From contig JAPOUL010000123.1 in the NCBI GenBank assembly GCA_026708685.1, forward strand, positions 1 through 64,000: a DNA stretch of 64,000 bases, given 5' to 3'. Below, piece by piece: positions 13,247-17,210 of the stretch. Below the pieces are notes generated by a model. The model was not told the origin of the DNA. It did not search any database and was given only the letters and a program-made list of their open reading frames with translations. How positions within the stretch are numbered: position 1 is the first letter of the stretch; each line of letters opens with the position of its first letter. Source of the DNA: Bacteroidota bacterium. GTDB lineage: Bacteria; Bacteroidota; Rhodothermia; Rhodothermales; Bin80. The position numbers and the translations under genes are program-made.

Positions 13247-14364
13247 CTACGGAATATCCTGTTCGCGTCCATACGTATCAATCAGAAAGGAGCGTAGAGA
13301 GGGTATGGGAATTCTGCAGTACCCATCTCCCTGTATATCAATGATCCCTCGGTCAAGAGCACGCGTGAACAGTGCGGTCGCCTTTTCCTCGGAGTAAGAC
13401 TCCGTGAGTCCATCAATGATCCATTCTGGGTCCATGTCCGTGCCTATTGGCTTCTTAGCGAAAAGCTTCGCCATCGCATGGCGCTCACCAAGAAAAATAC
13501 CTCTGAACCTCTCTTGGTAATAGGCAATCTGTTCTTCGCGGACTGCTCGGAGCACGCTGTCAAGTCCAGTATCTGACATGTCTGGGTTGATGCTAGATAA
13601 ATGGTTGGCGAGCAAGGATGCATAGGCGATAATGTGCTGTGGCCAGCCATGTGTTTGTTTGGCTACTGCATCAATCCATTTGGGCAAGGGTGGCACTACC
13701 TTCTCGTGGCTCAGGAATTTTCTGATGACAGATTTGGTCTCATGTGGGTGCAAGCCCCCTAGCGAAGGTTTGCATTGACGGGTGAAGCGGGTGATTCCAA
13801 AAGACGCGAACGCATCCAGAGTTGTGCTTAACCCACCCGCCAACAGCATGACGGGCATCTCTAAATGCCCGTTGTGGATCATGCTCAGGGTATCTCCGAC
13901 TCGGACATGCTCCTGTGATCCTACCTCCAGGGAAGATAACCGTTGGGCTTCGTCCAGCACTAAGATGAGTCCATGCTTGGTGGCTATGCACTTGAGAATT
14001 TCGGTGGGTGTCGCATGCCCCGCGATCGTCTCAACTATGCCGCCCTTAACGTATATGATTCCAGCCTCCAAGGAAGCCTTTTGGTCTACCGCGTATGCCT
14101 GCCCAAGTGCCTGTGCAATCGCGAAGGGTCGTGCAGGGCGGTCAGTGAGATGCGAGCGTGTTTCCATCGATTTGCCACCTTACAGAGTTCGGCGAGGAGG
14201 GCCGTTTTCCCCGCCCCAGGTGCCCCGTGAACCAGAAATGTGGTGCCCGTCTTTGAAGGCTTATTTGCATGGAGTACGGCTTTGAACACGTCAATGATCT
14301 CGTTACGCCCATGGAAATAGGGCTTAGGGCCGCGGTCTCCGTGGTGCTTTTCAGTGGGTGGCAT
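13247..14364 (-). pseudogene. solo AAA+ ATPase, copy 1 (frameshifted)
   Basis: Two overlapping frames rebuild a protein of about 372 residues. The first (from ATG at 14364) gives PYFHGRNEIIDVFKAVL, Walker A HGAPGAGKTALL and ..LTALHDP. The second, entered through a 1-nt deletion in a short run near 14126, gives AIAQALGQAYAVD, Walker B LILVLDEAQRL, GLSTTLDAFASFGITRF, THGWPQHIIAYA and the C-terminal IPIPSLRSFLIDTYG. Organisation suggests an ORC/Cdc6- or TnsC-like AAA+ module plus a winged-helix end; role unknown. It is paralogous to the genes at 43248 and 52895. After the TAG at 13247 the frame continues into a Pro/Lys-rich tail. Confidence 0.75.
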
Positions 14365-14533: not shown

Positions 14534-14540
14534 GTAGCAA

Positions 14541-14563
14541 AAGGGTAGATTCGGTAGTCTATC
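14541..14563. promoter_or_regulatory. GGTAGATT motif upstream of AAA+ copy 1
   Basis: GGGTAGATTCGGTAG then TCTATCC contains the 8-mer GGTAGATT found in the phased repeats upstream of AAA+ copy 2, and forms a partial dyad (GGTAGA...TCTATCC). It lies about 180 nt before the start codon of copy 1. Proposed as a shared regulatory or binding site by comparison only. Confidence 0.3.
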
Positions 14564-14824
14564 CTATTATTTCTGTCATATTCCTGCGAAATAGAATGGC
14601 TCAATATCAGGGTACACACGCAGATAATTCTGGTGATATATATGAGATCAGAATTACAATAGTTGATTCAATGAAATCTCATTAGCGTGATTTGAAAATC
14701 CAAGTTTTTAGATTCAAATCAATCCATTCACAAAAGTTAGGCATTCACCCGAACACCTAAATGGTAACGCAGATGGGAAACCCGAATAGGGTAAACGTTT
14801 GACGAACGGAAGGTGCAATCAAAA

Positions 14825-15845
14825 TTACGGAGTACCTTCTTCAGGCTTACGGCCAAGAAGAAAAACATAGGAGTAAAGATATTTTGATCTCCACCTGCAA
14901 CGAGTGCGTCTGCTCCAGAGTTCAGAAATGAACTTACATCTCGTATGCCTTTTGGAATTAGTCGCAGTGATTCTGCTATTTGAAGTGATGAATTTGTCAG
15001 GATTCGCCCAATTGGGGTACATGGAATACTCTTCCAAGTGAGATCTCTACCTTGAAGTGCACGATGCCATGGGTAACCTGGGTCAGCGGTTGGAGCAAGA
15101 TCAGAAGAATCTATCATCTCAAACCCAGACTCTTTTAATGATTGACATACGGCATGTGTTGTTGCAATGTCAGGAAGCGCGTTTCCTAACATGATTCTCT
15201 TCTTGATTTGCATATGATCTTCACGGGAAGGATCAAAATCGTCAGTAATACATCAGTCGTACCCAGCAAATAGACTTCCAGGCCGTAGGATTTGGTAAAC
15301 ATCAGAAAATGCACGCGTCTTATTTGGAGCATGGCACATCGCTTCAATTAAAAAGGCAGCATCATAGGAATTCGCTTCCTCAGAAATGTCCATGAAGTCT
15401 CCCTAGATAAACTGTACATTTTTATCTATGGGTTCCTGACTTAATTCTTTCGCTCGTTCCACCTGTGATAAGCTGAGATTCAAACCGACAAAGTCTGCAT
15501 AATACCATTGGGAAATATTTCGTACAGGACATCCCATACCGCATCCTAAATCAATGACTCTCTGTCCAGACTTTATCGACAGGGAATCCCCAATAAATCG
15601 CTGATGCCTTACAATAGAATCCTTAAATGATTCGCCGCGTTTGCGGGGAGCAAAGTGAAAACTGTCCCCCAACCGTACTCATAGAATCTGGTCACTAAGT
15701 TGTAGAAATGAGTGATCATCGTTTGATATCGGCCCCTTCGCTGATCAAGGTTTTTGGCAAAGATATCTGTATATTCGTCTACAGCATTTTTCGTTTCATT
15801 GCCTAATGAAAACGTGTCATTTTGGGGAGGGAGTTGAGAGGACAT
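14825..15845 (-). pseudogene. sterol C-24 methyltransferase (ERG6/SMT family), decayed
   Basis: Minus-strand reading rebuilds a full-length SMT of about 340 residues. In order: HFYNLVTRFYEYGWG, [1-nt loss in a G run near 15667-15671], SFHFAPRKRGESFKDSIVRH, the SAM site VIDLGCGMGCPVRNI, FI-[TAG, 15400-15402]-GDFMDI, LIEAMCHAPNKTRAFSDVY, RPGSLFAGYD-[TGA near 15253, where relatives have Trp]-CITDDFDP, then the SMT C-terminal domain (PWHRALQGRDLTWKSIP, SSFLNSGADALVAGGD, IFTPMFFFL), [frameshift near 14853] GRKPEEGTP-stop. SMTs alkylate the sterol side chain at C-24. Four independent lesions and a Cys in the GxGxGGP loop show a dead gene. No other sterol genes are in the window. Confidence 0.9.
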
Positions 15846-16211: not shown

Positions 16212-17210
16212 TTACGAAATAGAGACCCATGCGTTGATTTCTGCACTATGAAAACACGCGTCAATCACACGCATATTCTTCACAGCATCGGAAATAGAAT
16301 TCAATGGATTAGTCCCTTTTTGCACAACTTGCGAAAAGGCATCACACTGGGATGAAAATTGATTAACGGCAGGCATTTTCAATCGGTTCGTTTCAAGATC
16401 ATGCTGTATTTCTAATGTGGGCTCAGCATCTGGTGGGATATTAAATGGAGATGGAATGGAAATTCGTCCATGTATGCCCACCAAAGAAACATGTTGAAAT
16501 CGTTGCATCTGCGTCCCGCAGACGATCGTTGCACTTCCCTGAGCAAAATCTAAGAGGATAGTTGACAATACATCAGTCTTAAAGCGAGGATCTCGCTTCA
16601 TGCGTGCACTTACCCGCAAGGGCTCATCTCGGTAGAACCAACGAGCAACGGAGACACCATAACAACCAATGTCCATCAGTGCTCCACCACCGTACTCCAA
16701 GTTGTTTCGAATATTATTTGGGTCTTTGTTATCATAAGAAAAGTGAACATGGACATGTCGTAGCTCACCAATCTCACCTCCTATTACCATCTCATTAGCT
16801 GATCTCCATTGAGAATGGTACTTGTACATGAACGCTTCAGCGACAGTGAGATTAGGGTACTGTTTTGAAACCCCATCAAGAAGGAGTACATCCTGCTCAT
16901 TGAGTCCTAATGGTTTCTCGCACAAGACATGTTTGCCAGCCTCCAGTGCCAGAGATGCCCATTGGACGTGTAAGTGGTTCGGCAAAGGGATATAAACTGC
17001 ATCAACACTGTCGAGACGGATGAGATCTTCATAACTGGAACTCACCATTGGAATTTGGTGTGTCTCTGCAACCGTATGAGCAAGTTCTTGATTGCGAGAT
17101 GCAATAGCAACAACTGCACCCGTTTGACTGGACTGTATGGCAGGAATGACCTCTTTCTGAGCGATTCGTGCACATGACAGGACTCCCCAACGAAGTTGAG
17201 GCTTCTTCAT
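16212..17210 (-). CDS. Gfo/Idh/MocA-family NAD(P)-dependent oxidoreductase
   Basis: A 332-residue protein with an N-terminal Rossmann fold (LRWGVLSCARIAQKEVIPAI), the family motif VLCEKPLGL and the C-terminal segment YGGGALMDIGCYGVSVARWFY. Family members oxidise or reduce sugars and cyclitols such as glucose, inositol or 1,5-anhydrofructose, or act as dimeric dihydrodiol dehydrogenases, which this one resembles in length. Its start lies 45 nt beyond the stop of the DUF1080 gene on the same strand, so the two probably share a transcript; 3-keto sugars made by such oxidoreductases are plausible DUF1080 substrates. Confidence 0.87.
   Translation of the reverse strand: MKKPQLRWGVLSCARIAQKEVIPAIQSSQTGAVVAIASRNQELAHTVAETHQIPMVSSSYEDLIRLDSVDAVYIPLPNHLHVQWASLALEAGKHVLCEKPLGLNEQDVLLLDGVSKQYPNLTVAEAFMYKYHSQWRSANEMVIGGEIGELRHVHVHFSYDNKDPNNIRNNLEYGGGALMDIGCYGVSVARWFYRDEPLRVSARMKRDPRFKTDVLSTILLDFAQGSATIVCGTQMQRFQHVSLVGIHGRISIPSPFNIPPDAEPTLEIQHDLETNRLKMPAVNQFSSQCDAFSQVVQKGTNPLNSISDAVKNMRVIDACFHSAEINAWVSIS

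Follow-up and report, generated by a model that had tools for sequence, protein, structure and literature searches.

Functional bacterial sterol 24-C-methyltransferases (SMTs) of sponge symbionts and environmental bacteria have been published, and SMT homologues were encountered in bacterial clusters with other sterol genes, with fused SMO/OSC homologues also being mentioned (Brown et al., 2023; PMC10070321). Symbionts of Ircinia sponges were also shown to carry clusters of steroid genes (CSGs), which occur across ten phyla, Rhodothermia among them (Kelly et al., 2022; PMC9531527). In these CSGs, a reductase and a further gene come before an ERG24 - CYP51 - LSS core, and an SMT follows at the 3' end on the other strand; the clusters are maintained, move horizontally and are under purifying selection (PMC9531527). 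Neither bacterial SMTs nor the sterol clusters of sponge symbionts, including those of Rhodothermia, are new. An earlier note on the DNA analysed here was thus right that bacterial SMTs are known from recent metagenomic work (PMC10070321; PMC9531527), but the SMT reported below is less surprising than it held, because such genes had already been published. The genes tested by Brown et al. are intact and most of them functional (PMC10070321), and no pseudogenes are mentioned for the CSGs (PMC9531527), whereas the gene described here and the second SMT copy of the same genome are both dead. Neither SMT pseudogenes in these bacteria nor the decay of an SMT beside a maintained sterol pathway was found in these two papers or in the literature searched, most subscription papers and all bioRxiv preprints lying outside that search.

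The window, i.e., the whole stretch of 64,000 nucleotides that was analysed, is part of contig C121 of a genome of 3.83 Mb (G000; 99.6% complete, 170 contigs). It harbors the remains of an SMT with the following features:

14825..15845, minus strand: full-length SMT pseudogene divided over three frame segments, with the start ATG at 15843-15845 and the final stop at 14825-14827
15666..15670, minus strand: first 1-nt shift, within a run of G residues in region I (YEYGWG / DSFHFAP)
15403..15405, minus strand: in-frame TAG stop after VQFI
15253..15255, minus strand: in-frame stop TGA replacing the Trp conserved in the Y-[DE]-W-C motif
14850..14857, minus strand: second 1-nt shift, between FFFLA and RKPEEGTP, position approximate
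14851..15024, minus strand: Sterol_MT_C domain (PF08498)

Read from 15845 to 14825 on the minus strand, the segments give MSSQLPP...FYEYGWG, then DSFHFAPRKRGES...IFTPMFFFLA, then RKPEEGTP and a stop, which together represent a whole SMT. No continuous open reading frame joins them, and all four lesions, two in-frame stops and two 1-nt shifts in a full-length gene, were found as the earlier note had claimed. When the intact protein of the related genome G001 was used as a tblastn query, about 271 aa of the window SMT aligned in a single frame at 61% identity with two internal stops, and the N-terminus aligned in another frame. These comparisons of sequence confirm an inactivated SMT in a bacterial chromosome, which is an ordinary pseudogene and yet part of an informative pattern.

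The family assignment proposed in the earlier note held when the translated pieces were checked against profiles, the C-terminal piece matching Sterol_MT_C with 70.8 bits (E 1e-19; cut-off 21.7) and methyltransferase models matching the middle one. A profile built from intact relatives scored the window SMT at 409.7 bits (E 1e-122). The region I signature Y-E-[YFW]-G-W-G...SFHF is recognizable as YEYGWG and SFHFAPR, split over two frames, and the SAM-binding motif D-x-G-C-G-x-G-G-P appears as DLGCGMGCP, with one conserved Gly changed to Cys. An NCBIfam identity was also sought and dismissed, the only matches being to generic methyltransferases and far under the cut-offs. Among solved structures, a weak match to the 24-sterol C-methyltransferase 6f5z (E 1.3e-4) ranked behind other methyltransferases. 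The Sterol_MT_C domain is shared with the eukaryotic SMTs (ERG6, plant SMT1/SMT2), none of which is among the near relatives found, all bacterial. A scan recovered cluster-type SMTs and neighbouring cluster genes in metagenome-assembled genomes of many phyla, mostly about 57-82% identical.

The family might instead comprise SAM methyltransferases acting on a non-sterol substrate, in which case the relic would be uninformative about sterols. Generic methyltransferase models do match the gene, the best solved-structure matches are non-SMTs and a distant Sterol_MT_C type of the same genus lies apart from sterol genes, but the Sterol_MT_C score is well above its cut-off, in many phyla the relatives of this type have ERG24, P450 and cyclase genes as neighbours, and in vitro methylation of desmosterol has been shown for bacterial SMTs of sponge symbionts (PMC10070321), so that a non-sterol substrate is very improbable.

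One further SMT is present in G000 (C89:20263-21260), scattered over several frames with stops and with the Trp-Gly of region I altered. A squalene-epoxidase/oxidosqualene-cyclase fusion, encoded in a 1179-aa frame, faces it tail to tail, and upstream of this fusion are found a P450, an ERG4/ERG24 reductase, a Rieske oxygenase and a 3-beta-HSD-like SDR. Each of these five cluster genes is spanned nearly whole by one unbroken tblastn match, with 62-75% identity to G004 proteins, and the ERG24, P450 and cyclase genes stand in order and intact as in a bacterial steroid gene cluster, the P450 being assigned from Pfam and its CYP51 position only. The C89 cluster has the layout of the CSGs (PMC9531527), and squalene-synthase-family genes are also present in the genome. 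The window SMT, unlike the SMT of the CSGs (PMC9531527), sits outside the cluster, and the other cluster proteins gave no tblastn match in the 64-kb window. Neither a domain search nor a profile search of the 170 contigs recovered an intact SMT in G000, although with an assembly in so many pieces a third, unassembled SMT is conceivable. Since the one other SMT detected in G000 is likewise dead, the claim that this lineage has lost the alkylation step is supported.

A tree was built from 84 SMTs, none of them eukaryotic. In it, the window copy is placed among bacterial SMTs and is sister to the intact SMT of G001 (100/99), so that both the bacterial affiliation and the intact copy in a related genome raised in the earlier note were recovered. 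This pair lies within the sponge-symbiont clade (99/94) and forms a branch apart from all the other sponge-type SMTs, and the C89 copy and that of a further relative, G005, fall in the other SMT lineage; the bootstrap is not fully settled and the dead copies stand on long branches. By this placement, G000 formerly carried two distinct SMT lineages. Two SMT lineages in one genome recall SMT1 and SMT2 of plants. A single-gene tree unites G000 and G005 (87/86), with G001 joining the two next (67/66). Since the dead copies differ in genomic place and in tree position, the SMT losses of G000 and G005 look independent.

To gauge the state of decay, 66 columns were scored at which 97% or more of 78 intact SMTs agree. 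The window copy differs from them at 10 columns, the G005 copy at 9 and the C89 copy at 7, as compared to a mean of 0.96 and a maximum of 6 in the intact SMTs. The intact G001 gene is among those at this maximum and may therefore be drifting or specialised. In region I, both the window copy and the G005 copy have a disturbed G run, each in its own way. Relaxed selection on the window copy was sought by pairwise pN/pS, but the ratio was not raised: with synonymous sites saturated, pN and pS were 0.244 and 0.801 between the window copy and G001, and 0.277 and 0.782 for the intact pair G001-G004. Because of this saturation, the comparison only weakly hints that the death of the window SMT may be recent.

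Errors of assembly or sequencing could in principle have produced the lesions of a gene that is whole in the living cell, and one shift does occur in a G run, a usual site of length errors. However, two lesions are substitutions to stops, all four fall within 1 kb whereas about 8.3 kb of cluster coding sequence in the same genome is free of lesions, ten conserved columns are altered as well, and the second SMT copy is broken independently, making an artefact very improbable. Expression by recoding, with TGA read as Trp plus read-through and frameshifting elsewhere, can practically be dismissed in spite of a TGA exactly at the conserved Trp position, since a TAG stop and two frameshifts would also have to be overcome and sister genomes have copies that are intact under table 11. 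The gene is best regarded as an inactivated SMT.

The immediate neighbours of this inactivated SMT are the following:

13247..14364, minus strand: gene for an AAA ATPase with a frame shift near 14098-14128; the homologue of G005 (L184:501-1604) is intact
16212..17210, minus strand: Gfo/Idh/MocA oxidoreductase, an intact flank common to sister genomes

The window, of which 86% is covered by non-overlapping frames of at least 100 aa, shares with G002, in order, a photolyase, an ATPase-like match, the Gfo/Idh gene, a 3-keto-disaccharide hydrolase-like gene and NIF3. The match to the AAA ATPase at the syntenic place of G002 is also in two pieces, and an aminotransferase gene is found in G002 where the window has the SMT. 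The segment around the SMT is variable, and an arrival of the SMT by transfer at this G002-syntenic site was considered. A repeat about 70 bp long occupies 14536-14605 and has counterparts of 77-84% identity in six other parts of the genome, C89 among them. As a sign of insertion it was rejected, given that it folds no better than shuffled sequences and that no paired repeat bounds the SMT.

Ten genomes of the genus, G000 included, were compared. The cyclase fusion, the cluster ERG24, the P450 and the Rieske gene co-occur in the same five (G000, G001, G002, G004 and G005), the fusion of G001 being split across two contig ends. Intact cluster-type SMTs occur in G001, G002, G004 and G007; G000 has two dead copies and G005 a single dead one (on C63), i.e., every SMT found is dead in two of the five cluster-bearing genomes. 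G007 presents the reverse of the window genome, with an intact SMT adjoining degenerate scraps of the cyclase fusion (G007:C19; L019:8992-10274) and no sign elsewhere in the genome of the further cluster genes that were searched for. In the remaining four species only a distant Sterol_MT_C protein was found. The neighbours of this distant type B (L020, L021, L023, L024, L025) include RND pump genes, a GPP34-P450 protein lies near the type B gene in four genomes, and no cyclase fusion was found in the genomes of these five loci.

Other sterol-related genes were noticed along the way. A distant second ERG4/ERG24-family gene of G000, G001 and G005 (L178:9978-11111, L179:3033-4184 and L180:10083-11240) adjoins an oxidoreductase-like gene and other conserved genes. 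In another family of the order, G048:C1 (L058) and G054:C25 (L056) carry ERG4/ERG24 genes with no cyclase fusion found, and a use of sterols from outside is possible in these two. In an alphaproteobacterium, an SMT (L171:10001-10857) has a frame shift and lies next to a short match to the cyclase C-terminus, possibly a similar loss in another phylum.

A working SMT would transfer a methyl group from SAM to C-24 of a sterol bearing a C-24 double bond. The window gene is a dead bacterial SMT of the sponge-symbiont type, one of two SMT lineages in this Rhodothermales genus. The sterol nucleus would still be built by the squalene epoxidase-cyclase fusion, the P450 in CYP51 position and ERG24, with the Rieske and SDR enzymes presumably standing in place of C-4 demethylases. 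As both SMTs found in G000 are dead, the species has probably lost side-chain alkylation while building its own sterol nucleus. Taken as a whole, an inactivated SMT in a species that keeps the nucleus-building cluster, has both of its detected SMTs dead and is predicted to make non-alkylated sterols is an account in which we have high confidence.

The earlier suggestion that the sterols once alkylated were perhaps host-derived is not favoured in G000: the intact de novo cluster on C89 and the squalene-synthase-family genes make the bacterium's own sterol a likelier SMT substrate than that of a host. A host-derived sterol may apply elsewhere in the genus, as suggested by G007 with its SMT and no cluster. 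The window genome apparently comes from a sponge symbiont, an origin that finds support in the CSGs described from Rhodothermia living in Ircinia (PMC9531527). It is tempting, though doubtful, to propose that the pathway is splitting in complementary ways within the genus, every SMT being lost in some species that keep the cluster and the cluster being lost in another that keeps an SMT, with alkylation cross-fed across the sponge community; if true, sterol alkylation would be a shared trait of that community.

Bacterial SMTs bear on whether 24-alkylated steranes must be eukaryotic, including 24-isopropylcholestane, which serves as evidence of early sponges. The finding of only dead SMTs in two of five cluster-bearing species suggests that a bacterial sterol cluster need not imply alkylated sterols. 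With an intact SMT present in some species and absent from others, the genus offers a natural comparison for matching sterol profiles to symbiont genotypes.
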